From Siphonodentalium dalli (Eukaryota; Mollusca; Scaphopoda; Gadilida; Siphonodentaliidae): 64,000 bases of DNA. Positions 3,046-63,748 of the stretch are shown here, piece after piece. The stretch's first letter is position 1, and every line of letters begins with the position of its first letter. The translations under genes were made by a program, and so were the position numbers. The stretch is from NCBI GenBank assembly GCA_032622095.1, contig CP136062.1:131209282-131273281 (forward strand), read 5' to 3'. Under the pieces are notes generated by a model. It was not told where the DNA came from, ran no database searches, and saw only the letters and a list, made by a program, of their open reading frames with translations.

Positions 3046-3444
3046 TTGACTATCATCGAGACTCCAGCGTACTCAATCCCTGACTGGAACAATTACCAAT
3101 ACGACAAGCGGGTAAGAAAACACCGAGAGAACCCGGCAAGATATCCACCAGCAATACAACCTCCTAATCCAGAAGACCACCAAAACGTACTGACTGAACA
3201 AATCAGACAACTTAACATCGAGAATAAGGCAATCAACCAGTCTCACCATCAAAATTCACCGGAATTCTCATCCGACCTGCGCACGTACAAGAGGCACGTC
3301 ACAGGACGCGCACGGCGAAACACCAGGACTGAGACCAGGTACAATTACAAGCTGTACAGAAATGATGGCATCCACCCTGATGAATTACTCAGTGAAGTCT
3401 GGCTCCGGAAAATCAGGAACCAGATACTCAAAGACTGCTGGTAG
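3046..3444 (+). CDS. 5'-proximal basic open frame of the CR1-like LINE
   Basis: An open frame of about 132 residues with no ATG; the first usable codon is TTG and the frame is open from 3037. The product is basic and rich in Asn, Gln and Arg, with an Arg-rich patch (TGRARRNTRTETR) that could bind nucleic acid. It ends at 3444, overlapping the next frame by 83 bases. It may be the C-terminal part of ORF1, with the second frame reached by re-initiation or frameshifting, or simply a decayed 5' region. No domain is recognised. Confidence 0.45.
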   Translation: MTIIETPAYSIPDWNNYQYDKRVRKHRENPARYPPAIQPPNPEDHQNVLTEQIRQLNIENKAINQSHHQNSPEFSSDLRTYKRHVTGRARRNTRTETRYNYKLYRNDGIHPDELLSEVWLRKIRNQILKDCW

Positions 3445-4786
3445 TAAACAAAATGTGGGTCGGTATGGGCTGAACCATGCTATAACCCATACCAGACAAA
3501 AAACACACCAGACCACACCATCAGGAGCACTGCGGAGAAAGGGTAGGCATGGGCTGTACCATGCTACACCCTACACACTCCAACTGGCACTGCAGAGAAA
3601 GGGTAGACATGGGCTGTACCATGCTACACCCTACACACTCCAACTGGCACTGCAGAGAAAGGGTAGGCATGGGCTGATCCATGCTACACTCTATTCACCC
3701 CATTACCAACGGGCACTGCAGAGGAAGGGTAGGCATGGGCTGATCCATGATACACTCTATGCACACCAAAACCAAAAACACCAGGCTCTACACAACAAAA
3801 ATAAAACAAAAGCGGGTCGGTATGGGCTGAACCATACTATACCCCTAACAGATAGCCACAAAAGGAGATATGGGAACATAACAACGGCAAAACACCTGCG
3901 CCTCCTCCTCATCATCGCTGGCATCGAACAAAACCCGGGGCCCAAAAAAGCGAAAAAGAAAGCTCCCACTAAGCAAAAGGAAAAATCAGTATACCCTTGC
4001 GGAGTATGTGAAGGAGCAGTGACATGGACAGTCATCGTAGGAGTATGCTGCGATGGATGTGATGTTTGGCATCACTACTCATGCGTAGACCTAGACACAG
4101 CAGAAGTCCAGTCACTAGAAGAAAGACCCAGCAAAGAATGGAAATGCATGAAATGTGACAGCATCAACATCGAGAGCTTCACATTACATAGCTATGAAGT
4201 CAGTACCTCCAACTACTACCAAACACTAAGCCATCTAGACAGCTCCATCCGAAGTATGAACTCAATTTTCGACCCGACCCATACTAGCAGTCCCAAAGCA
4301 GACACAACTCTAGGCTCAGCATCAAGATCGAACAGATTAGCATCCCAAAATACCTTTAACACACCAAGAAAAGACAATCTCAGATTGTTAATTGTTAATT
4401 GTAGAAGCCTAGTCAGCAACAAAGCGGAACTGGAAATTGCAACCTCCTACATAAAGCCTGATGTTATCATCGGTACAGAGTCATGGCTAAAAGGAAAGAA
4501 ACCAGGAAAAGAACCAGCCCAAAATGCCATCAAGTCAGCTGAAGTCTTTCCTGAAGATTATACTGCCTATAGGAACGACCGAGATACTACGGGTGGAGGA
4601 GTCTTCATTGCCATTCAACAGGAAGCAGTTGCAATAGAGAAGACAGAATATATCACCAACTGCGAAATTGAATGGATAAAACTGTCAATACAAGGAGGCA
4701 AGCATATACACGTGGGAATTTTCTACATGGCACATCGATCCAAATCAGACATAGAAAATCTAGAAAAATCCATCAAAGCACATTAA
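3362..4786 (+). CDS. LINE polyprotein N-part: hairpin-repeat region, 2A-like motif, PHD finger, N-half of APE endonuclease
   Basis: A 474-residue frame starting at an ATG-ATG pair (3362). Residues ~30-160 are tandem ~20-residue repeats around KGRHGLYHATPYT. Residues 179-194 (LRLLLIIAGIEQNPGP) form a 2A-like ribosome-skipping motif, with the predicted break between Gly193 and Pro194. The canonical Asp before (V/I)ExNPGP is Gly here, so activity is uncertain. Residues ~213-265 form a Cys4-His-Cys3 PHD finger (CGVC, CDGC, HHYSC, CMKC). From ~340 the APE endonuclease begins (NCRSLVSNKAEL, then GTESWL with the catalytic Glu, then TTGGGVFIAI). The frame stops at 4786, just before the GGDFN motif, which continues in another frame. 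That marks a one-step frameshift lesion rather than a natural end. 2A-like signals upstream of APE-type LINE proteins are known in sea urchins and molluscs. Confidence 0.85.
   Translation: MMASTLMNYSVKSGSGKSGTRYSKTAGSKQNVGRYGLNHAITHTRQKTHQTTPSGALRRKGRHGLYHATPYTLQLALQRKGRHGLYHATPYTLQLALQRKGRHGLIHATLYSPHYQRALQRKGRHGLIHDTLYAHQNQKHQALHNKNKTKAGRYGLNHTIPLTDSHKRRYGNITTAKHLRLLLIIAGIEQNPGPKKAKKKAPTKQKEKSVYPCGVCEGAVTWTVIVGVCCDGCDVWHHYSCVDLDTAEVQSLEERPSKEWKCMKCDSINIESFTLHSYEVSTSNYYQTLSHLDSSIRSMNSIFDPTHTSSPKADTTLGSASRSNRLASQNTFNTPRKDNLRLLIVNCRSLVSNKAELEIATSYIKPDVIIGTESWLKGKKPGKEPAQNAIKSAEVFPEDYTAYRNDRDTTGGGVFIAIQQEAVAIEKTEYITNCEIEWIKLSIQGGKHIHVGIFYMAHRSKSDIENLEKSIKAH
3457..3845 (+). repeat. Six tandem hairpin units in the LINE coding region
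   Basis: Units begin at about 3457, 3541, 3601, 3661, 3727 and 3814. The spacing is exactly 60 bp for the three central units and somewhat longer elsewhere. Each unit contains a short inverted repeat: stem GCATGG, loop GCTGTA, GCTGAA or GCTGAT, stem CCATGC. In the last unit the stem is GTATGG/CCATAC, a paired C-to-T and G-to-A change. The first unit has GTATGG/CCATGC, which still pairs by G-U. Units 3 and 5 carry one mismatch each. The array lies just upstream of the 2A-like motif. Confidence 0.75.
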
Positions 4787-4847
4787 AAAAGACTCCAGCT
4801 TCATCCATGGGGGAGACTTTAATTGTCCTGACATCGACTGGGATACA

Positions 4848-7109
4848 ATGACTGTAGGGCCGGGGGCACAAGACCGAGAGATACAGAATGACCTCATCAA
4901 CGTGTGTGCGAAATTAGGACTAAAACAGGTACAGGAGGACCCAACCAGGGAAGGAAACCCACTGGACCTAATCATAACAAACAATCCAGCATTAATAAAA
5001 TCCACCACTACAATACCTGGCATATCAGACCATAATATGATCATTGCTGACTGTTCTCCAACTCCATCCTACAATAAACCAGTACAGAGAACTAGATATC
5101 TATTCGACAAGGCAAATTGGACTGACATAGCTGCAGATGTTGAGAAGATAGCGGTGCAAATAGAAGATTCTCCCACTGATACCAACATCAACACCATGTG
5201 GAACTTCTTTCGCGATTCCATCAAAGAAGTTGTGGAAAAAAGAGTACCAAAAGCACCAAGATGTCGACGCAAACAACTGCCATGGATAAATAGAAGACTC
5301 AAATTGCTTCTAAGGAAAAAAGCAAGATTACACAGGAAAGCTAAAGAAGCAGGATGTTGGAAAGAGTATAAAGACCACCAGAAAAAATGTAGGAGAGAAA
5401 TGAGGAAAGCAGAACAAGAACAAATAAACACCATAATAAAGAAGGGGGAGGAAAAGAAAACATCAAAACCCTTCTGGAGCTACATGAAGGCCCGAAAACA
5501 AGAAAGAACAGGTACGCCACCGCTAAAAACAGGAACATCACTCACAAACGATGCAAAAGAGAAGGCGGAGCTACTAAATAAGTCGGTATTCACCATAGAC
5601 ACTAACGAAGAGCTACCATCCATACCACAAAACAGTGTAAACATCAAACCACTGGAAATTACAGAAGAAGGAATAAAGAAACTCCTGGAAGATATAAAAC
5701 CATCAAAGGCACCAGGTCCAGACAACATCCCTAACAAAGTACTCAAATTACTGGCCAACGTACTGGCGAAACCCATCACCACCATATTCAACAAATCCAT
5801 AGAGACCGGCACCCTTCCAGAAGACTGGCTGAACGCAAACATAACACCAGTTTATAAGAAAGGAGACGTTCACCAACCATCCAACTACAGACCAGTATCA
5901 CTCACTTCAACATGCTGTAAGCTACTAGAGCACGTCCTGTGTAGACACATCCGCGACCACCTGGAACTCTGCAACCTACTGACTGATAGAAACCACGGAT
6001 TTAGATCTGGCCACTCATGTGTTACCCAGCTTGTAAACACCACACAAGATCTACTATCATCCTTTGACTCGGAGAAGCAAACCGATATGGCAATCCTCGA
6101 CTTTTCCAAAGCATTTGACACGGTACCACACCAGAGTATACTATACAAACTGAAGTCATACGGAATCACAGGACCAATACACACCTGGCTGACAAGCTTC
6201 CTAACAAAAAGGCATATGAGACTAGTGTTGGGAGGAGAAACATCCAAAAGTGTTCCAGTGGAATCGGGAGTACCACAAGGTTCAGTACTAGGACCCCTAC
6301 TATTCCTCTGCCACATCAACGACCTTCCACAAGCAGTCAAATCAGAAGTAAGACTCTTTGCTGATGACTGCATACTATACCGCCAGATAAATGACCACAT
6401 CCAACTACAACAGGATCTGACATCACTAGAAGAATGGGCGAAAACCTGGGGGATGAGATTCAATGCTGGAAAATTCTCCATAATGTCCATGAAGAACAAG
6501 GACAAGAACAAAACATCGTTCATCTACCAGCTTGACCATCAAATTCTGCAATCAGTCAAACAAAGCGTCTACCTTGGACTGACCATCACAGATTACCTAA
6601 AATGGTCAACGCACATATCCAAGATCACTGGAAGGGCCAATAGCACCTTAGGCTTCCTGCGCAGAAACTTACGTAGAGCGGACAGTAAATCCAGAGAGTC
6701 CGCATATAGAGCTATGGTGAGAACATCACTCGAATATGGAGCAGAAATATGGGACCCCGTCGCAGTAGGAGAAATAGAGAAGTTAGAGAAAGTGCAGAGA
6801 AGAGCGGCAAGATTCATCACCAACAACTATAGAGACCGGGGAAAAGGCACAGTAACCAGCATGATTGATGGCCTAAGGTTAGACTCACTAGAGATCCGCA
6901 GAAAGATGAAGAGAATAGAACTCTTCGGCAAGGTGGTTGAGGGGAAAATCCCAGCCATACACACACATGATTTACTAAAGGATAAGAAAGGAAGGAAAAT
7001 CCGAGCAAAAAAGTTTCCAGACCACAAAAGTGATAACATAATTTCGAGCCAAGAGTGTATCAACTCACGATCGTTCGAACCAATAAGACCCAACATTCTT
7101 TCTTCGTGA
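4848..7109 (+). CDS. LINE polyprotein C-part: endonuclease C-half and reverse transcriptase
   Basis: A 753-residue frame. The true coding continuity begins upstream at about 4787 with GGDFNCPDIDW, so the ATG at 4848 is only the first Met after the frameshift. Residues 1-70 finish the APE endonuclease (PTREGNPLDLIITNN, then GISDHNMI with the catalytic Asp-His). The reverse transcriptase follows: KAPGPDNIPNKVLK near 288, NYRPVSLTS, HGFRSGHSC, LDFSKAFDTVPH near 417, GVPQGSVLGPLLF, and the catalytic RLFADDC near 504. After the thumb come SLEYGAEIWDP and KVQRRAARFITNNY, typical of Jockey/CR1-group elements. The role is target-primed reverse transcription of the element RNA. The stop at 7107-7109 is premature, since a conserved ending continues in a second frame to 7183. 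Confidence 0.92.
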   Translation: MTVGPGAQDREIQNDLINVCAKLGLKQVQEDPTREGNPLDLIITNNPALIKSTTTIPGISDHNMIIADCSPTPSYNKPVQRTRYLFDKANWTDIAADVEKIAVQIEDSPTDTNINTMWNFFRDSIKEVVEKRVPKAPRCRRKQLPWINRRLKLLLRKKARLHRKAKEAGCWKEYKDHQKKCRREMRKAEQEQINTIIKKGEEKKTSKPFWSYMKARKQERTGTPPLKTGTSLTNDAKEKAELLNKSVFTIDTNEELPSIPQNSVNIKPLEITEEGIKKLLEDIKPSKAPGPDNIPNKVLKLLANVLAKPITTIFNKSIETGTLPEDWLNANITPVYKKGDVHQPSNYRPVSLTSTCCKLLEHVLCRHIRDHLELCNLLTDRNHGFRSGHSCVTQLVNTTQDLLSSFDSEKQTDMAILDFSKAFDTVPHQSILYKLKSYGITGPIHTWLTSFLTKRHMRLVLGGETSKSVPVESGVPQGSVLGPLLFLCHINDLPQAVKSEVRLFADDCILYRQINDHIQLQQDLTSLEEWAKTWGMRFNAGKFSIMSMKNKDKNKTSFIYQLDHQILQSVKQSVYLGLTITDYLKWSTHISKITGRANSTLGFLRRNLRRADSKSRESAYRAMVRTSLEYGAEIWDPVAVGEIEKLEKVQRRAARFITNNYRDRGKGTVTSMIDGLRLDSLEIRRKMKRIELFGKVVEGKIPAIHTHDLLKDKKGRKIRAKKFPDHKSDNIISSQECINSRSFEPIRPNILSS

Positions 7110-7785: not shown

Positions 7786-8254
7786 AGGTACTCAACCCGT
7801 AAAGAGGGTCCCCATCTCAACAGATTCCAACAACAACAATCCGATCAGAGGGTCCTATATTACTATTTCTTTGGCTTTGGTGGTAAAAAATATTTGATTC
7901 GAGTCGAGGAACCCATCAAACAAAGCTCAGAGTTATTAGATATTGATTTTTCAAATTTGTTATGTTCTCGAGATGAGTACCAATAACTGCCGTAATCTGC
8001 TCTGGATGTGTACTCCAAATCTATTCAAACAGACAAGGATGAATAACTCTAAAATCAAGTGGTAATTTTAACGCAATTTTGATTGAGTACTGGGCCAGAT
8101 AGTATTCCCGATAATGAAAAATAATAGATTTCTAAAATCGATATCTAACAAATCTGAGCTTTGATGGGTGACTTCCTCGACTCGAATCAAATATTTTTGA
8201 CCCCCGAAGCCATTGAAATAGTAATTGAGAGGAGTTTTATCGGGTTGAGTACCT
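7786..8254. mobile_element. MITE family A, copy 1 (TTAA target duplication)
   Basis: The ends are perfectly inverted: AGGTACTCAACCCG at the left, CGGGTTGAGTACCT at the right. The element is flanked on both sides by TTAA (7782-7785 and 8255-8258). Long imperfect arms continue inward (TATTTGATTCGAGTCGAGGAA; GCTCAGAG versus TCTGAGCTTTGATGGG). At 469 bp it has no coding potential. TTAA targeting points to a piggyBac- or Kolobok-type transposase acting in trans (inference). Confidence 0.88.
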
Positions 8255-8258
8255 TTAA

Positions 8259-30594: not shown

Positions 30595-31026
30595 AGGTAC
30601 TCAATCCGATGCAATGGTCCCCATATCAACAACAACAACATTTTTTGAAATGCACTTCAGTTATCGATTAATTGCCCAAAAATAATGCTAACCACACTCA
30701 ACTATAGTATAAAATTTGTCCAAAACCTGCTTTTTATCAACATTTTGTTCATGAAATTTTGCCGGTTTATCAAATGTCTGACACAAAAAAGCCACTTAAT
30801 TTTAGAGTTATCCATCTTCATCCGCAATTTGGTCCGAGGCAGTCTTCTCGTCGACTGTTTACTGAGCCACATACAATTATCGGCGGTGAAAAATAATAGA
30901 TTTCAAACATGGATATCTGATCACTCTGAACTTTGATGGGTGGGTTCATAGAATCGAATCGAATATTTTTTACCCCAGAAGCCAAGGAAATAGTAATTTG
31001 CGAGCGTTAATTCGGATTTTACATCT
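30595..31026. mobile_element. MITE family A, copy 2
   Basis: The left end AGGTACTCAATCCG is preceded by CTAA (a degraded TTAA); the right side is followed by TTAA (31027-31030). The right arm (AAATAATAGATTTCAAA, CTCTGAACTTTGATGGGTGG, GAAGCCAAGGAAATAGTAAT) matches copies 1, 3 and 4. The left arm is degraded. Non-coding. Confidence 0.7.
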
Positions 31027-35701: not shown

Positions 35702-35955
35702 CAAGCCTTGAAATAGTGTGCCAGTCATTTGCAGAATGAGGTCCCCAGAGGGTAAATTTAGTGATGCTACCCCGCATAGCGGGCTAGCATCACCAAATTA
35801 ACCCTCTGGGAACCTCATTCTGCTGAGTTGTAAGCAGAATGAGGTCCACAGAGGGTGAATTTGCTTATGCTAGCCCACTATGCGGGGTAGCATCACTAAA
35901 TTAACCCTCTGGGGACCTCATTCTGCAAATGACAGACACACTATTTCAAGGCTTG
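35702..35955. mobile_element. Double-palindrome foldback related to the 59-63 kb element
   Basis: The outer arms (CAAGCCTTGAAATAGTGTG with CAGTCATTTGCAG) are inverted around a centre near 35828. Each arm is itself a palindrome running from GCAGAATGAGGT to ACCTCATTCTGC through AGAGGGT...ACCCTCT. The same ~125-bp arm sequence forms part of both inverted arms of the 3.75-kb element (59519-59640 and 62567-62693). 254 bp, non-coding. Confidence 0.8.
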
Positions 35956-51873: not shown

Positions 51874-52302
51874 TATGTATATATATATATTTATCTTATA
51901 CCGGTGTGAAGTTATACTGTGTATTAAATTCTCGTGATATCTTACATATGTGTATTATCATCTCAAGAAACGGACTATGCGCAGCGTGACCTTTCGCCTC
52001 GTGACGTCATGCTTGCCGTAGCGACGTATCAACAAAAAACTCTCGCCTCGAAATTGGGTCAAATAGACTGTAGCAATTCGAATGGTTTAAATGAGTAAAT
52101 TCATGAATAAAAGTGAAATAAAAAAAAGTACTGTAGCTTTATATCATAAAAAATGAATAAAAGTTCCCATTCAGAGCAAATATGTTAGGTTCAATTATTT
52201 TTTTTGGGTAATTTAGACGGCTTTCTCCGCAGAAAATTTGCAGTACTTTCGTCTGCTTTTAAAAGTTTAATTCGGACGTAGCTTGTACTGAATAATTGAA
52301 GT
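51874..52302. other. Upstream region of the tyrosine-recombinase gene
   Basis: AT-rich, without a clear TATA box or conserved element. A CAG after a pyrimidine-rich tract near 52230 could be a splice acceptor, but nothing decides this. Confidence 0.3.
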
Positions 52303-54315
52303 ATGGATCTCAACGATCAGAATTTCGATGTTGATATGTCGTTTGATGAAGATATGCCAGGAATGACTACCCAGGATATAGAATCTCATTTTCTTGAGGG
52401 GTTCGACGTTGCAGAAGCCGAGGCTTCGGAGTCACAATCTACACAACTCTTTGATATCTTTAGCCAGGACAATGACCCTACTAGTAGTACTCCCACCCCC
52501 AGTAGCAACGCAAACAGTGAATTTGGTGCCTGTATTGAAGTTATTGAACTTACTGAGGACATTTCTAATAGATCTACTCTTATGGATAACTATGAAGCAA
52601 GTTCTGACCATGGTGACACCACATATTATCCCGAAGATGAAATGTCTCAATGTGAAAGTGAATCTCGTGATTCTGTTTCTGATCATCATGATGTCATTGA
52701 TGAGACAATTACTACTATTACTAATTATGTAGCTGAGTCTGAAACAGAAAGTACTGTACCTGAACCTGAGGAGAATAATCATGATGTACATCTTCCTGCA
52801 AATGAAAATCCAGATGAAAGCGATCATGGACCCAGCACCAGTAGTAGCATCAATATGTATGGAACCGATGAAGCCGAAGCTGACCATTTACTAGATTTAG
52901 AACCAATTGACTATGATGATGGGCGATTCATTCACATGGACAGTGATGCTATTGGTGAATTTGTTGACTCAAAGAGAAATGCGAACACGGTGAGGAAAAC
53001 ATATTACGATCTAAAACTGTTCAAACAATTTTTGAAATCACAAGGATTACAGGAGGATTTTCAGAACATCAGCCCTGTCTCTCTTGATCCTGCTGTTGCA
53101 AAATTCATTCTCTGTGTCAGAAAGCAAAATGGTAAGGACTATGAACCGACATCATTGCGGGGATTGATCTGCAGCATCGACAGACATTTACGGAGACACA
53201 GGTACCAGACGACCATACTAGGAGGAAAGGATCAGAATCTTTTTCAAGCTGCACGGGAATCCCTAGAAGCGAAACAACGAGATTTGAAGGAAAAGGGACA
53301 TGGAAACAAACCGTTCGCAGCAGATCCTGTCGATGATGATGATATCAAAATTCTTTATGCATCAAAAGTGCTTGGATGTCATGACCCAGAGACATTATTG
53401 CACACAATCTGGTTTAACAATGCGACACAACTTGGAATCAGGGGTCATAAGGCACATCACCAACTCAAATGGGGTGATATTAAGCTATCGAAGACTGTTG
53501 ATGGTGCCGAATATCTAACACACAATGAGCGTCAAACTAAGACAAGAACTGGAACTGACTGCCGAGATGTGAGGCAAGTGACGGGCAAAATCTTTGCAAA
53601 TGCTGTGATCGGAGATAAATGCCCGATATTCCTATACAAGAAGTATGCGTCACTGCGACCGGTTGGCTACTCAGAACAAGAAGACCCATTTTATTTAGCC
53701 ACAAGGACAATACCTCTGTCTGATGAACGCAGCGATAAATGGTTTAACAAACAAAAGGTGGGAATAAACAAACTTGGGAAAATCATGAAGTTGATTACAT
53801 CAAAATGCCCTCAACTAGATGATTCAGGAAAGCGATTAACAAACACGAGCACCGGGAAATATTGTATTCAGAAGCTGAGGGATGAGAATGTTCCGCCAAC
53901 TGATATCATGCAGATAACAGGACACAAGAATGTGGCTTCAATAAATAACTATTCGAAGTTGTCTATAAACAGACAGAAAGAAATTTCCACAATGCTCTCT
54001 ATGCCTGCTGGAAATATTGAAAATCAAGCAACAGCAGCAAGTTCCACACCTTATTTATCGTCAACTGGAAACTCAGCATTGCCATCAAGTTCAACTAATA
54101 ATCTCACAGTTACACCACCAGCTTCAGCCTCAGTGAATGTTCATTCCATGCAGTCGCTGACAATTTCGAATTCACACTCACACTCACAGCAAAACCAAAG
54201 TTTATTCTATGGGGCAACTCTTCACATAAACACTATGAATGTGAATACATACCCTGGTATGAATGATCCAAATGCACAACCTCTCCAATCTAATAATAAT
54301 CCAAATAATCAGTGA
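52303..54315 (+). CDS. Crypton-type tyrosine recombinase-like protein, probably catalytically impaired
   Basis: A single open frame of 670 residues from ATG 52303 to a stop ending at 54315. Residues 1-215 are acidic and low-complexity (Asp/Glu/Ser/Thr-rich). Residues ~220-320 form an N-terminal SAM-like DNA-binding part (NTVRKTYYDLKLFKQFLKSQ). Residues ~340-560 form the catalytic domain shared by Cryptons and by the KIAA1958/QRICH1/ZMYM group. Arg380 lies in LGIRGHKAHHQLKWGD, a Lys in TKTRTG, His541 in ITGHKNV and Tyr550 in SINNYSKLS. The motif that normally supplies His-x-x-Arg reads TNTSTGKYC here: His is Thr515 and Arg is Gly518. Strand cleavage is therefore probably lost. The tail (~570-670) is Ser/Asn/Gln-rich. 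No intron or frameshift is visible in 2 kb while neighbours are decayed. That suggests either a recent insertion or selection for a DNA-binding role. Confidence 0.85.
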   Translation: MDLNDQNFDVDMSFDEDMPGMTTQDIESHFLEGFDVAEAEASESQSTQLFDIFSQDNDPTSSTPTPSSNANSEFGACIEVIELTEDISNRSTLMDNYEASSDHGDTTYYPEDEMSQCESESRDSVSDHHDVIDETITTITNYVAESETESTVPEPEENNHDVHLPANENPDESDHGPSTSSSINMYGTDEAEADHLLDLEPIDYDDGRFIHMDSDAIGEFVDSKRNANTVRKTYYDLKLFKQFLKSQGLQEDFQNISPVSLDPAVAKFILCVRKQNGKDYEPTSLRGLICSIDRHLRRHRYQTTILGGKDQNLFQAARESLEAKQRDLKEKGHGNKPFAADPVDDDDIKILYASKVLGCHDPETLLHTIWFNNATQLGIRGHKAHHQLKWGDIKLSKTVDGAEYLTHNERQTKTRTGTDCRDVRQVTGKIFANAVIGDKCPIFLYKKYASLRPVGYSEQEDPFYLATRTIPLSDERSDKWFNKQKVGINKLGKIMKLITSKCPQLDDSGKRLTNTSTGKYCIQKLRDENVPPTDIMQITGHKNVASINNYSKLSINRQKEISTMLSMPAGNIENQATAASSTPYLSSTGNSALPSSSTNNLTVTPPASASVNVHSMQSLTISNSHSHSQQNQSLFYGATLHINTMNVNTYPGMNDPNAQPLQSNNNPNNQ

Positions 54316-55019: not shown

Positions 55020-55574
55020 TTAAGACCTTTGAAATTTATATACGAACAAGCTTTCGGCTTTCGCCTTTCTCAAGTATAAGTCAGCATCTTTATTGATGCC
55101 CAGATGCAGGCTCCCGAATGCATCTATCATTTGTTGCTCTTTGATTCTGCGGTCCTCACGCACGGGCAGACCACCACACAATACCTGTAGACGAATGTCT
55201 TTAACTGAATGGTCAGGTAAGTTGAAGTGGCGGGCATATGGTAATCCCACATCATGTTTCCTGATATCCTGTCGATGGCCATTAACTCTAATGCTTAGAG
55301 AATTGCCAGTCTCACCAATATAATGCATGTCGGGGCAACGAACACATGCCATGTAGTATATCACCCCGGCCGACGTACACGATTGTTTTCCTTTTGGTGT
55401 GAATCGCTTCCCATCCTTAGTATGCATGACATCATTGGAGATGAGTTTCCACAAGCCACACCTAGGCCTATGACATGGAAATGTCCCGCTGTCACGTCCA
55501 TTCACGGTGTCATCGGTGAGTCGGCTCGACACAATCTTATTGGGCATCAATAAAGATGCTGACTTTATGGCCAA
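55020..55574 (-). pseudogene. Penelope-like element fragment: GIY-YIG endonuclease C-terminus
   Basis: A minus-strand frame of 184 residues. A Cys/His-rich lead (CHRPRCGLWKLI) precedes the GIY-YIG core (GVIYYMACVRCPDMHYIGET, then LSIRVNGHR with the conserved Arg). The HFNLPDHSVKDIRLQVL block follows, then EDRRIKEQQMI with the probable catalytic Glu, and GINKDADL with the conserved Asn. This is the canonical C-terminal endonuclease of Penelope-like retroelements. No reverse transcriptase lies upstream because the copy is truncated. The first residues of the frame are not native: they are encoded by an inverted 25-bp copy of the GINKDAD-coding segment (55541-55565 against 55078-55102). Upstream a Helitron-like element abuts. 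Confidence 0.88.
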
Positions 55575-56310
55575 AATCCCACCGACACCACCGTGGTCGC
55601 GTTTTGGAGAAGCTCAGAGCAACCGTTCCCAATCTCAGTCACAAAAAACGGCACTGCGGTGGTTAAGACATCGACGATCTGTATGTTGACCTTATATGGA
55701 GGTGTTAACAATCAACGCTCTTTATTGCAATGGACGTGGCTAAACGACTGACCCCATGCGTCCGAAATACGGATGCGGATTCCAATGGACGTGGCTAAAC
55801 GACTGACCCCATGCGTCCGAAATACGGATGCGGACGAAATGCAATTATCTCGACTTTCACGACGGGATTAATTGACTGTCCGCTCTGAAGTTTAGGACGG
55901 GGAGGACGGGTACCATGCAGTGAATTAACTCATTGAAAAACAAAGAATGCGTTATCTCGGAAACGGGTGGAGCTATCGACTTGAAATTTGCTATGTGAAT
56001 GTATCTTGGCCCGGATACAAATTTTATCGGGTCACTGAGCCCGTGCGACGCCCGTGCAGCGCGTGCGCAGACGAGATATCGGAAACGGGTGGAGCTATCG
56101 ACTTGAAATTTGCTATGTGAATGTATCTTGCCCCGGATACGAATTTTATCGGGTCGCCGAGCCCGTGCGACGCAAGCTTCGCGCATGCGCAGACCAGATC
56201 TCGGAAACGGGTGGAGCTATCGACTTGAAATTTGGTTAAATTAAAAAAATGTCATGTTTCTGAAACAAAGCCATGAGACGAATGCCGCCAGTGGCGGGCT
56301 AACCTGCTAG
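55575..56310 (+). mobile_element. Helitron-like element, 5'-truncated
   Basis: 55580-55680 matches 50019-50118. 55925-56310 matches the repeat units and 3' end of element 1 (49873-51095), including the GCCGCCAGTGGCGGGC hairpin and CTAG (56307-56310) before T56311. A ~70-bp internal duplication (GACGTGGCTAAACGACTGAC) lies at 55731-55830. The 5' end is missing at the Penelope junction. Confidence 0.78.
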
Positions 56311-58601: not shown

Positions 58602-59175
58602 TAATTATTCTATCAAAGGCTCAACATCAACTTCACCATATCCGACAATAACAGCTTCTGGATTTCGCCAGACTTCACCACGACAGTCACCACATGCCAC
58701 CACCAAAGGAGTGCATTTTTTTCTACAGGAACACAAATTACCCCCGCACGGATTTCTACTTCCCATCATGCATTTGCAGCGCACTAATTTTAGTAGTGAT
58801 GTTGGTGCAGGTTCGATGTCGATCATAATTGGAACTAAATGAGAACCCTGGATTTTTCATTTCCCAATCCTTGTCGATGGTAGTTTTTCCAGGTTTTTAA
58901 CAGATAACCACTTGCATATTCACACATAACCTATGGATATATGCCTTCGTTCTGTTGGTGGTAGTTTCCCTGAGGAGCCTCATGTCGATGACACCGTCTC
59001 CATAAACTGTGTGTACCGCAAGCTATTGAGGGTATCACCCTGCTTTCCCGCACACATATATCGCCTTGAAAAGAATGTCTCCGGCTTCGCCAAATTTACT
59101 TTGTCAAAATCGTTCACAATGGATGATATCCGCTGTAGTTCGGGGAAATATTTCTATTTTTAGGAGGCCGGTTTT
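58602..59175 (-). pseudogene. Decayed multi-copy invertebrate gene, C-terminal part
   Basis: Minus strand, from 59169 downward: GLLKIEIFPRTTAD, then in another frame SSIVNDFDKVNLAKPETFF and DTLNSLRYTQFMETVSS, then GKLPPTER, a shifted AYIHRLCVNMQVV, and finally SHLVPIMIDIEPAPTSLLKL with a Cys-rich end (RCKCMM, CGGNLCSCRKKC, ACGDCRG). At least three frameshifts or stops are present. From memory, the order LNSLRYxxF, LPPTERAAxxH, then a CxC...CSCRK...CGxCRG tail, is the C-terminus of a large uncharacterised family with many copies in molluscs and other invertebrates. It continues upstream at 62927-63042, beyond the inserted 3.75-kb element. Confidence 0.75.
59170..59175. repeat. Target-site duplication GGTTTT, left copy
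   Basis: Matches 62927-62932 on the other side of the 3.75-kb element. Taking out the element and one copy makes the pseudogene reading frame run on from GKT into GLLKIE. Confidence 0.85.
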
Positions 59176-59210
59176 TACGGAAGCACAGTAGCGCCACAAA
59201 AAAAATAATA

Positions 59211-59453
59211 ATTACGGCGTTTAAACGCCCTATTACGGCGTTTAAACGCCCTAATTACGGCGTTTAAACGCCCTAATTACGGCGTTTAAACGCCCTATTA
59301 CGGCGTTTAAACGCCCTAATACGGCGTTTAAACGCCCTAATTACGGCGTTTAAACGCCCTAATACGGCGTTTAAACGCCCTAATACGGCGTTTAAACGCC
59401 CTAATACGGCGTTTAAACCCCCTAATTACGGCGTTTAAACGCCCTAATGCGAC
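59211..59453. repeat. Array of 11 palindromic units, left arm
   Basis: Eleven copies of GGCGTTTAAAC at 20-22-bp spacing. Ten carry the full 14-bp palindrome GGCGTTTAAACGCC and one reads AAACCCCC. Spacers alternate between CTAATTAC, CTAATAC and CTATTAC, all fixing the same orientation. Confidence 0.95.
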
Positions 59454-60239
59454 ATATATGGAATGACTAGTGAACCTTCGGACTGAACCTTCGGACTACT
59501 GAACCCTACTGGTCTGAACAGAATGAGGTCCCCTAGCAAAGGGTGAATTTGGTGATGCTAGCCGCTATGCGGGGTAATATCTCTAAATTCACCCTCTGGG
59601 GACCTCATTCTGCAAATGTCAGGCACCTTATTTCCGGGCTTGATACCACCACTGGTATATGCGTTGGTTTGGGTGCAATGTGTCTAACCGTGAAACATGT
59701 GGTCCCCTGCTATAAGCATATACCCTTCGCTATGTGCATATTCGACTACATGGGGTTGTTTTTAGTGCATTCTAGTTCATTTTGGATTTTCGGAGAATCG
59801 GGCCTTCGGAGTTATGGGCTTTCGGAGAATCGGGCTTTCGGAGAATCGGGCTTTCGGAGAATCGGGCCTTCGGAATTATGGGGTTTCGGAGAATCGGGCC
59901 TTCGGAGTTATGGGCTTTCCATGGCTGGCATTCTCAGAAATCCGGGCGGGCTAAGACCAGCCCTCCTCAATCAGCCTAGGTGGGCTATAGCCCTCCTCAG
60001 TGATGATGTCATAGCATGGACATTTTAGCCAACTACAGCGAAATCACATTCACGACAATGGAAATAGTCATTATCTGAACTAAACTGCGTTAATACATTT
60101 TACAAAGGCAGCCATTCCAAAATGTACCTCACCCCATAGACTTTACCCACCCGAATAAAGGCCATCGGTTATAGGGTGATAGAGCCAGAAACATTAATCG
60201 TGAGTCACTACTCATATAATGCAGTGGTCTTGTTATGGT

Positions 60240-60744
60240 GTTTGATGCACCAACTAATGGCTAAAATGTAGACAGTCATTTAATCTTATTAATGGTTCTC
60301 AATCTGATTAAGCACCCCTAAATTACTATTTCTTTGACTTCGGGTGTAAACAATAATTGATTCGAGTCGACGAACCTACCCATCAACGCTCAGAGTGATC
60401 AGATATCAACTTTTGAAGTTGTTTTACATCTATTGTTTGTGGCACAGAACACGCCGTCAAAAGGATGTTCTCAGTCAAAATTGCGTTAGTATTACCATTT
60501 ATTTTTAGTTATCCACCTTCGTCCGTTTGAATAAGTGTTTCTGTGGTAATTATCAGTACACATCTCGAGAAAATTACAAACTTCAAAAATCAATATCTCA
60601 TCACTCTGAGCTTTGATGGATGGGTTCCTCGACTCGAATCAAATATGTTTTACCCCTGAAGCCAAAGAAATAGTAATTTAGGGGTACTTAATCGGAATGA
60701 CTGTCTACATTTTAGCCATTAGTTGGTGCATCAAACACAACAAG
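60240..60744. mobile_element. Foldback related to MITE family A (copy 3)
   Basis: The outer arms (GTGTTTGATGCACCAACTAA, AATGTAGACAGTCATT) at 60239-60285 are inverted at 60697-60738. The inner arms match MITE A (ATTACTATTTCTTTGACTTC, GATTCGAGTCGACGAACC, ATCAACGCTCAGAGTGATCA and their inverse). Non-coding. Confidence 0.75.
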
Positions 60745-61967
60745 CCGCCGGAGACGGCGGTATCCCCCGCCGAAATGTGCAGTAGGGGAAGTGCATTCTC
60801 AATAAAGTTTACGTTCTCAGTACGTGGTAAATAAGAGGTGGGATTTTGTCAAAAAGGCTCGCGAACTCATTTTAGGTACTAGTCATGGGAACAAATATAC
60901 CAAAACTCTTTTAAATCCGTTGATATAAATTTTGAGCAAAATTTAAAAAATATATATATTTGATAAAATATACCTCAATATCTCCATAACCATGCATAAA
61001 TATTCTTAGAATGACATTTTACTTCTTGACAGCCCATATCACATGGTGGTCTGTGTACAGAACTGGAAAAGCATGTGTGTCCATTTTAATATTAGAGAGA
61101 AGTAGGTCGAGTATTCCTTCAAGTATATGTGTCGGCTGCACAACAGATTGATGTATTTTGAAGATGTTTTCAAGTTGAGACACATATTTCTCCTGATGGA
61201 TGTTGAAATTGATATCACCAGTGCAGATTATTGTAACAAATTTTAAAAAGTCCAATAACTCTGCTTAAAATAACCGGCCGGACCTGGTTTGTGAACTCAT
61301 TCTAGATACAGGTCATGTGAACTCATTTACCGAATATCTCTGAAATCCATTGAGATTTGTGGAAATGAGCCCTGTGACGTCGTCCATTTGCACACACAAA
61401 AATAAACAATGTCCAATAACTCTGCTTAAAATATCCTGCCGGACCTGGTTTTCGAACTCGTTCTAGATACTGATCATGTGAACACAAATAACAAAAATCT
61501 TTGAAATCCGTTGACATTTGTGGAAATGAGCCCTGTGACGTTGTCTATATGCTATTTGGTAAATAATAAACAAAGTCCAATAACTCCGGTAAAAATAACC
61601 GGCCGGACCTGGCATGCGAACTCATTCTAGGTAATGGTCAGGTGAACTCATATACCAAATATCTTTGAAATCCATAGAGATTTGTGGAAATGAGCCCCGT
61701 GACGTCGTCTATATGCTATTTGGTAAATTCAACAAAAATAATAAACAAAGTCCAATAACTCTGGTAAAAATATCCTGCCGGACCTGGCTTGAGAACGCAT
61801 TCTAGGTAACGGTCAGGTGAACTCATATACCAAATATCTTTGAAATCCGTAGACATTTGTTCAAGTTCTGACTCGATCAAATTCAGGACAGACGGACGGA
61901 CGGACGGACAGACGGACGGAACCCATTCCTATATCACCCGCAAATTTTCAATTTGGCGGGGGATAAT
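60745..61967. mobile_element. Repeat-rich insertion with TATCCCCCGCC ends and 6-bp flanking repeat
   Basis: Flanked by AACAAG (60739-60744 and 61968-61973). It begins CCGCCGGAGACGGCGGTATC and ends GGCGGGGGATAAT, so both ends carry TATCCCCCGCC in inverse orientation. Near the right end are four diverged ~165-bp tandem units (TCCAATAACTC, GCCGGACCTGG, ATCTTTGAAATCC) from about 61247 to 61860. A (GACG)n tract follows at 61892-61918. It includes a LINE endonuclease remnant at 61019-61255. Confidence 0.7.
61019..61255 (-). pseudogene. LINE APE-endonuclease fragment
   Basis: A 78-residue minus-strand frame with a GD-x-N motif (TGDINFNIHQE), a spacer ending QPTHILEGILDLLLSNI, and DHHVIWAVKK. This is the order GDxN...PTH...LDLLxxN...DH of the C-terminal half of APE endonucleases. 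It is isolated, without RT, and therefore a remnant. Confidence 0.6.
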
Positions 61968-62760
61968 AACAAGAGCACTGCATTGTATGAGTAGTGACTC
62001 ACAATTAATGTTTCTGACTCTATCACGCTATAACCGATGGCCTTTATTCGGGTAGGTAAAGTCTATGGGGTGAGGTACATTTTGGAATGGCTCCCTTTGT
62101 AAAATGTATTAACGCAGTTTAGTTCAGATAATGACTATTTCCATTGTCGTGAATGTGATTTCGCTGTAGTTGGCTAAAATGTCCATGCTATGACATCATT
62201 CACTGAGGAGGGCTATAGCCCACCTAGGCTGATTGAGGAGGGCTGGTCTTAGCCCGCCCGGATTTCTGAGAATGCCAGCCCTGGAAAGCCCATAACTCCG
62301 AAGGCCCGATTCTCCGAAACCCCATAATTCCGAAGGCCCGATTCTCCGAAAGCCCGATTCTCCGAAAGCCCATAACTCCGAAGGCCCGATTCTCCGAAGG
62401 CCCGATTCTCTGAAAATCCAAAATGAACTAGAATGCACTCAAAACACCCCCAAGTAGTCGAATATGCACATAGGAAGGGTATATGCTTATAGCAGGGGAC
62501 CACATGTTTCACGGTTAGACACATTGCACCCAAACCAACGCATATACCAGTGGTGGTATCAAGCCCGGAAATAAGGTGCCTGACATTTGCAGAATGAGGT
62601 CCACAGAGGGTGAATTTAGAGATATTACCCCGCATAGCGGCTAGCATCACCAAATTCACCCTTTGCTAGGGGACCTCATTCTGTTCAGACATTGATCGGG
62701 TAGGGTTCAGTAGTCCGAAGGTTCAGTCCGAAGGTTCACTAGTCATTCCATATATGTCGC

Positions 62761-62893
62761 ATTAGGGCGTTTAAACGCCGTAATTAGGGCGTTTAAACGC
62801 CGTATTAGGGCGTTTAAACGCCGTAATTAGGGCGTTTAAACGCCGTAATAGGGCGTTTAAACGCCCTATTAGGGCGTTTAAACGCCGTAATTA
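62761..62893. repeat. Array of 6 palindromic units, right arm
   Basis: Six copies of GGCGTTTAAACGCC at ~21-22-bp spacing, in inverse orientation to the left array (spacers CGTAATTAGG, CGTATTAGG). One spacer has flipped (CCTATTAGG). The lower count than in the left arm shows independent expansion or loss. Confidence 0.95.
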
Positions 62894-62926
62894 TTATTTT
62901 ATTTGTGGCGCTACTGTGCTTCCGTA

Positions 62927-63042
62927 GGTTTTGCCCTGGTCATATATAACATACGTTGTCTCACACCCAGACCAGGCATGGATGAAGAGAATATGTACCG
63001 TTTTACTTTGCCGGCCTTCTGCATAAGATCGCGTGTTTTCCA
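62927..63042 (-). pseudogene. Decayed multi-copy invertebrate gene, central part
   Basis: Minus-strand frame RSYAEGRQSKTVHILFIHAW followed by SGCETTYVIYDQGKT. HAxSGCDTTSAxFxxGK is a hallmark of the same family as the pieces at 58602-59175 and 63753-64000. It is bounded on one side by the 3.75-kb foldback and on the other by a TTAA MITE. Relative to the family as I remember it, several hundred residues between this piece and the 63.75-kb piece are missing. Confidence 0.75.
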
Positions 63043-63046
63043 TTAA

Positions 63047-63748
63047 TAATTTATCACCCAGTTACAAAAACAACAACAACAATCGGAATTTCACCAAAAG
63101 CCGATTTAGTTATTAAATTAGTTTATTGCCAATAAATACTCACAACAATACCAATCATGATATCATATTTGCCGTAGAAGTCCTACAATAACGGTTTTTT
63201 TTCTTGGCAGTTTGGAGGTGAGTGAGTGTGGTTTACAATTCCTAATTCAAGTTGGAATTCCCCAAAAGTGTTGTCACGAATGTAAACACATAGTATTTCC
63301 ACGTGTATCCAGCATGCATGGTGCCATGTTATATGTCTATTTGCATGAATAAAACATGATTATCGATTCGTAAATAAGTATAAATTCATGTATGCGCGCG
63401 TCAACTATCACAACATACCATATTATTGTTGATGGCAATACTTTTCCTCGAATTTTATTCCAAAAGTAACCCGTCGCCACTTATCCAACATGGAGCCGCG
63501 ATCTTGCGTGACTCTCGTAACTGCGTGCGCGCATGTCTGTACTATATTTCTATATTTTGTGCTGATTTTTGCCAGCCGCCAAATATTCACATGCAGAGGT
63601 GAAAAATAACAAATTTCAAAAATCGATATGTAATAACTCTGAACTTTGATGGGTGGATTCCTCGACTCGAATTACATATTTTTTTACCCACCGAAGCCAA
63701 ATAAATTGTAATTTAGGGGGGGGGGGCGTTTAATCGGATTATGCATAT
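63047..63748. mobile_element. MITE family A, copy 4
   Basis: Flanked by TTAA (63043-63046 and 63749-63752). The right arm 63598-63735 (GTGAAAAATAACAAATTTC, CTGAACTTTGATGGGTGGAT, CTCGACTCGAATTACATA, GTAATTTAGG) is clearly family A. Near the left end a CAACAACAACAA stretch at about 63070 matches copies 1 and 2. The left arm is otherwise replaced by unassigned sequence. It interrupts the multi-copy pseudogene. Confidence 0.68.

Follow-up and report, generated by a model that had tools for sequence, protein, structure and literature searches.

A foldback transposon family in Siphonodentalium dalli shares its ends with two elements of about 40 kb that carry an integrase-like transposase gene

The 64,000-nucleotide stretch of DNA analyzed here (the window) derives from the scaphopod mollusc Siphonodentalium dalli (assembly GCA_032622095.1, contig CP136062.1, positions 131,209,282 to 131,273,281 of the forward strand). 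At window positions 59176-62926 lies a 3,751-bp foldback element, identified by direct reading and repeat finding. From the outside inward, each side has a 33-bp terminal repeat that starts with TACGGAAGC, then a palindrome array and an inner arm about 790 bp long, and the two sides enclose a loop; the complete arms extend over 59176-60236 on the left and 61966-62926 on the right. The individual features, with the evidence used to place each, are as follows.

59170-59175, no strand: left target site duplication, GGTTTT (direct reading, repeat finding)
59176-59208, plus strand: left outer terminal inverted repeat, TACGGAAGCACAGTAGCGCCAC followed by an A/T stretch (22-bp terminus searches)
59209-59448, plus strand: left array of 11 units repeating every 21-22 bp, with the palindromic core GGCGTTTAAACGCC (repeat finding, unit counts)
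59449-60236, plus strand: left inner arm, or inner domain (repeat finding; part of it matches the left part of a 40.9-kb element, described below, at 89%)
59519-59612: 94-bp palindrome within the left inner arm (repeat finding)
59788-59919: 16-bp repeats within the left inner arm (repeat finding)
60229-60744, no strand: small foldback repeat nested in the loop (repeat finding)
60738-61966, minus strand: HINE-like (Helentron, pearl-type) element nested in the loop (repeat finding and the plan given in the available text of PMC7492417)
61966-62760, minus strand: right inner arm, 98.0% identical to the left inner arm (799 aligned columns, gap columns excluded from the percentage)
62761-62893, minus strand: right array of 6 palindromic units (repeat finding, unit counts)
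62894-62926, minus strand: right outer terminal inverted repeat, ending in GCTTCCGTA (22-bp terminus searches)
62927-62932, no strand: right target site duplication, GGTTTT (direct reading, repeat finding)

A preliminary description, made from the sequence alone, had proposed a 3.75-kb foldback with inverted arms of about 1 kb, shared inverted outermost termini, subterminal arrays of 11 and 6 palindromic units, and GGTTTT on both flanks, all of which are borne out. Specifically, the two termini are identical over 22 bp (TACGG..CCGTA), and a window search for this 22-bp sequence with up to three mismatches returns two sites, both exact and mutually inverted (chance expectation 0.00). A window scan for the 14-bp palindrome with up to two mismatches likewise yields 17 units, 11 on the left and 6 on the right, with none outside the element (0.11 expected); a single unit of the left array carries one mismatch. 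The proposal that the insertion interrupts a decayed gene fares less well. Removal of the element does join GKT to GLLKIE in frame on the minus strand, but about 20 codons further along this frame there is a stop, followed by several more, so the in-frame join says little and the remark is weakly supported. An Rfam scan of the window at gathering scores gave 0 matches.

The small foldback in the loop has three relatives in the window (7854-8258, 30890-30999 and 63603-63719). The neighboring loop segment resembles the HINE/pearl elements of bivalves, which are non-autonomous Helentrons whose plan, in the available text of PMC7492417, comprises subterminal inverted repeats, a microsatellite, central repeats of about 160 bp, and a 3′ palindrome. 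All four features are present: the subterminal repeat TATCCCCCGCC and its complement nearby, a second subterminal repeat, a GTCC microsatellite, about four repeats of about 160 bp arrayed at 61237-61900, and a terminal hairpin (-8.4 kcal/mol, z -4.3). It differs from those elements in being a probable passenger within a foldback loop. By eye, we suspected a remnant of an EEP/Helentron endonuclease at 61022-61264 and rejected it: Pfam gave just YjgF_endoribonc at E 0.029, below the cut-off, and NCBIfam gave no match. Together with both nested segments, the long inner arms are probably passengers. Two inverted copies, each of about 120 bp, of the region around the 94-bp arm palindrome also occur at 35702-35955, outside any foldback element, and are perhaps a separate mobile palindrome.

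When the host genome (2.23 Gb in 9 contigs) is searched for the 22-bp terminus with up to two mismatches, 171 sites are found (86 forward and 85 reverse), and the reversed pattern yields 0. Copies beyond the window were located through this terminus or through the left 425 bp of the element, and the conservation of the terminus is therefore not independent. Pairing, which used 150 of the 171 sites, gives 57 adjacent convergent pairs less than 60 kb apart: 12 span 0.6-2.0 kb, 37 span 3.2-4.2 kb and 4 span 5.0-5.6 kb, and the remaining four measure 8.6, 11.8, 39.5 and 40.9 kb. The chance estimate for convergent pairing is 0.0001 if placement is uniform. Because of this assumption, and because two divergent adjacent pairs also fall within 60 kb (one between segmental copies on contig C2), we rely on the target duplications instead.

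Both ends lay inside the retrieved stretch in 17 of the first 20 copies fetched, and were ultimately read in 49 copies. Five of these are segmental copies as judged by their flanks, leaving 44 distinct insertions. An exact 6-bp duplication borders 38 of the 44, compared with 2.0% for shuffled flanks. The 171 termini (control 0) and the 38 exact duplications settle the question of chance: the foldback family, with its TACGG..CCGTA ends, is mobile as a unit and duplicates 6 bp of its target. The preliminary description had predicted that the terminus would recur in many copies with 6-bp duplications and variable arrays. Indeed, terminus and duplication are common to the family in the copies examined, and nothing in these copies speaks against that description. 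Among the 38 exact duplications, A/T occupies position 3 in 35 cases and position 4 in 32, and G/C occupies position 1 in 24 and position 6 in 26, while in the flanks C is rare three bases before (1 case) and G is rare three bases after (1 case). A weakly symmetric preference of this kind would be the expected trace of a dimeric DDE integrase.

All or part of the window loop recurs in 17 of 19 other full copies, which were picked mostly by likeness to the left end of the window element, and the bodies match at 95-97%. For the 12 short pairs (0.6-2.0 kb), ends were read in 10, representing 8 distinct insertions, 6 with exact duplications and 2 with one mismatch. That copies of 0.8-2 kb have duplications of their own suggests that the full 3.7-kb body is dispensable, the alternative being that they were shortened after insertion. 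Three copies on C2 (614, 1165 and 1115 bp) have the same flanks and represent one insertion, segmentally duplicated and internally altered. Same flanks also unite the foldbacks at C8:171497905 and C8:171930206, and those at C1:144262115 and C1:144441007; the members of each pair lie 0.18-0.43 Mb apart, with one pair inverted, and both pairs are segmental duplications that include the element.

The arrays range from 2 to 30 units among 42 arrays counted, a range that leaves out the right array of the 11.8-kb copy. Unit spacing is 21 bp (271 cases) or 22 bp (203 cases) in 474 of 479 instances, with a mean of 21.43 bp, or about two helical turns. Palindrome cores are exact in 468 of 521 units. 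Genome-wide, paired exact palindromes 7-8 bp apart number 894 per strand, and the reversed pattern again yields 0. Counting units with up to four mismatches, cores deviate at an average of 1.06% per base, versus an arm divergence of about 2%.

Two of the larger terminus pairs, of 11.8 and 8.6 kb, were considered as autonomous copies and rejected, since both proved to be foldbacks with nested inserts. In the former (C1:139777380-139789203), a 7.6-kb element with terminal inverted repeats GGGAACTGTTAA, at about L059:171-7791, is inserted in the TTTAAA center of a palindromic unit and has no open frame of at least 150 codons.

The two largest pairs delimit the elements that we call giants.

C7:164195858-164235351, 39,494 bp: C7 giant (terminus pair)
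C8:155464449-155505324, 40,876 bp: C8 giant (terminus pair)

The preliminary description had proposed looking for an element with a transposase between such ends, and these two have an intact one. Their 6-bp duplications differ (AAAGGG for the C7 giant, GTATCA for the C8 giant), and they thus represent two insertions. In the C8 giant, 25.3 of 40.9 kb were read; in the C7 giant, reading covered 452 bases across both ends and reached the first array units. The C8 giant has 19 exact palindromes in its left array and 30 in its right array. Two 1-kb probes from its interior match the C7 giant at 100% and 99% and are nearly colinear, with offsets from the left end in C8 versus C7 of 4,850 versus 4,633 bp and 24,450 versus 21,997 bp. 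These matches indicate joint movement of the whole 40 kb, followed by insertions and deletions. Besides the transposase gene, the parts read contain no open frame of more than 165 codons from stop to stop (introns not considered), and consist otherwise of repeats and repeat mosaics.

The transposase gene is an intact 287-codon open frame just inside the right array of the C8 giant; 74 bp separate the end of this array from the start codon. Both giants have this frame uninterrupted, at 708 and 763 bp from their right ends. In a genome search with 136 of 311 candidates scored, it was found at 99-100% identity solely in the two giants, with the next relative at 58%; the same search revealed no smaller autonomous copy. 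The protein matches Pfam rva_4 above the cut-off (E 2.4e-27) and rve below it (1e-4), and the NCBIfam models IS3 (3.5e-7) and IS481 (1.1e-4) score far below their cut-offs. A putative catalytic triad, D132-58-D191-40-E232, was placed by eye from motifs, and the 287-residue sequence has no HHCC pattern. Four matches to PDB sequences (E 0.091-0.87) are meaningless. We also discarded a match of 14 residues to a viral contig (L107), which lies in a frame other than the 216-codon open frame of that contig and was taken as chance. Elsewhere in the genome, rva_4 transposases give 126 matches, including 18 with a 294-residue frame and near-equal scores and four with a 346-residue frame (C4:26602969, C4:60648008, C5:81208690 and C7:158585560), which are perhaps further IS3EU-like families.

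According to the available text of Kojima (2023; PMC10045372), every complete IS3EU family has TA..TA termini, 6-bp duplications are the usual case, and HHCC is absent. The TET-bearing IS3EU elements of Pucciniales end in TAYGG..CCRTA, as given in the accessible part of PMC12730594. The family described here has TA..TA termini of the TAYGG form in the window element and the paired copies examined, 6-bp duplications, and an IS3/IS481-related DDD/E transposase without HHCC, for which rva_4 scores above the cut-off and rve, IS3 and IS481 below. Because its termini and duplications are the published hallmarks of IS3EU, the superfamily that the preliminary description did not recognize is most likely IS3EU/GingerRoot, as judged from termini, duplication length and profile matches. 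Mutator elements have target duplications of 8-11 bp and a MULE transposase, and the 6-bp duplications and rva_4 transposase place the family outside Mutator. Ginger1 and Ginger2 are set apart as well, by duplications of 4-5 bp (PMC10045372, same text). An alpha-kinase is encoded by the TET-bearing IS3EU elements of fungi (PMC12730594, same part); none of the 6 alpha-kinase matches in the genome lies inside a giant.

Our preferred explanation is that the window element is a non-autonomous foldback that would be moved by an IS3EU/GingerRoot-type DDE transposase. The enzyme encoded by the giants would cut the shared TACGG ends and insert them with a 6-bp stagger. The identical ends, the 6-bp duplications, and an intact gene found at 99-100% identity nowhere else all point to this enzyme as the mover, and we place the probability of that reading at roughly 0.8 on these sequence features. 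Conversely, the integrase gene could be a passenger of the 40-kb elements, with an unrelated transposase, encoded elsewhere, as the mover of the family. The repeat mosaics in the giants make gene pick-up conceivable, the genome has the 126 other rva_4 matches noted above, and an association found in two copies of one another is a single event. We nevertheless judge a passenger gene to be improbable, given that the termini and 6-bp duplications match those published, in the text available, for the same enzyme class, and that neither giant has an interruption in the gene.

Several observations weigh against the giant-encoded enzyme as mover, or against a role for the arrays in its action. Three of the 44 insertions have a 6-bp duplication with one mismatch, and three others have none even when one mismatch is allowed (one has 7 bp, one has 4 matching bases, and one has no duplication). 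The two giants are mutual copies, and the association between gene and ends therefore counts once. A second transposase gene is possible in the giants, of which 25.3 kb of C8 and the ends of C7 were read. Finally, the likeness of array units could be explained by unequal exchange or concerted evolution alone, and the contrast between core and arm divergence is weak.

Polinton/Maverick elements are 15-40 kb long and encode an integrase. A relationship of the giants to them would accord with a size of about 40 kb and with the 6-bp duplication, which the available text of PMC10045372 also states for Polinton. We consider it very improbable, because no DNA polymerase B match falls in either giant among 149 listed (69 of 1596 candidates scored), because the transposase gene stands alone among open frames of more than 165 codons in the 25.3 kb read, and because its product scores with IS3/IS481 models. 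The genome at large does have dozens of DNA polymerase B matches, which we presume to be of Polinton type.

The origin of the giants is a separate matter. Positions 292-816 of the window element, in the inner arm, match L062:3720-4255 in the left part of the C8 giant in inverted orientation (89-92% over 537 columns); two shorter pieces of the arm are present in forward orientation at L062:1146-1284. The left part thus holds a worn foldback-like structure, and the right part just an array and the transposase gene. The giants might therefore be macro-transposons, in which a left foldback copy was united, together with the intervening DNA, with the right end of an autonomous element that had been smaller before. 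Pieces of both arms within the leftmost 3.7 kb of the C8 giant fit this proposal, as do the bare array at the right and the finding of neither a second terminus (up to five mismatches) nor an internal array inside the parts read. Against it, no smaller autonomous copy was found (among the 136 scored candidates, and in the 25.3 kb of the C8 giant), and descent of the foldbacks from the left end of a giant fits equally well. Either the foldbacks came from that end, or a giant arose once a foldback started to move jointly with an autonomous right end. We regard the macro-transposon origin as a possibility at somewhat long odds; it is compatible with movement by the giant-encoded transposase.

The arrays invite a further proposal. 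Palindromes 21-22 bp apart would face one side of the helix and could serve as repeated sites for a transposase dimer, such that each end would load many transposase copies, which may aid synapsis even where the ends are separated by 40 kb. The phasing, the exact cores, and the right array 74 bp from the start codon make the palindromes candidate phased multimeric binding sites, a reading to which we give about an even chance. Biochemical precedent exists in Galileo, whose transposase binds repeats in its foldback-like arms (PMC3688188, available text). Transposase bound at the giant right array might also regulate its own gene, as the position of this array directly upstream of the start codon hints, although we lean against this idea. 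Taken to its limit, any DNA between two array-bearing ends, even 40 kb, would become a transposon, with an IS3EU transposase pairing distant ends through satellite-like, helically phased palindrome arrays and regulating itself through the array by its start codon; foldback structure would then recur from array-driven end pairing, independent of superfamily. As a whole, this generalization is tentative and, in our estimation, unlikely.

The window contains other candidate mobile sequences. A long interspersed nuclear element in two overlapping frames (3194-7109) has an endonuclease-like domain, a reverse transcriptase, and a PHD-finger match just below the cut-off; upstream of the PHD finger is the motif GIEQNPGP, which we take to be 2A-like. 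An open frame of 671 codons (52300-54315) has a DUF3504 match and a QRICH1 match below the cut-off, and presumably encodes a Crypton-type tyrosine recombinase. A 197-codon frame on the minus strand (55020-55613) is GIY-YIG nuclease-like by eye, with no Pfam match at E 0.001.

To our knowledge, IS3EU/GingerRoot elements are otherwise known just from shorter examples, and the giants add a very large member. In the parts of the literature searched, we found no description of IS3EU elements with kilobase foldback arms, palindromic arrays, or an autonomous size of about 40 kb, and hence no foldback so described in this superfamily (Repbase and Dfam lay outside the comparison); where IS3EU and foldbacks do appear in one paper, the two are mentioned independently. 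The closest systems in architecture are Drosophila FB and Tetris, foldbacks mostly related to Mutator-like elements. The foldback plan of flanking, tandem-repeat, inner and middle domains, as set out in the available text of PMC4079207, is also that of the window element, whose terminal, tandem-repeat and inner domains surround a middle domain. Tetris is non-autonomous, duplicates 8-10 bp, and was assigned to Mutator by its authors, in contrast to the 6-bp duplications and integrase-like transposase found here. The same text indicates that most foldbacks seem to be Mutator elements and that no autonomous copy of Tetris was found. In S. dalli, one genome contains both a foldback family and intact transposase genes flanked by the ends of that family, in a superfamily other than Mutator. 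Galileo, a foldback-like member of the P superfamily, likewise has long, internally repetitive arms; it differs in that its binding domain is THAP and in that palindromes are absent from the available text of PMC3688188. There, the Galileo authors noted in 2013 that repeat binding had yet to be tested in Foldback and Phantom. The pairing of foldbacks and giants in S. dalli makes it testable whether the tandem repeats of foldback arms are transposase-binding sites and what benefit they bring.

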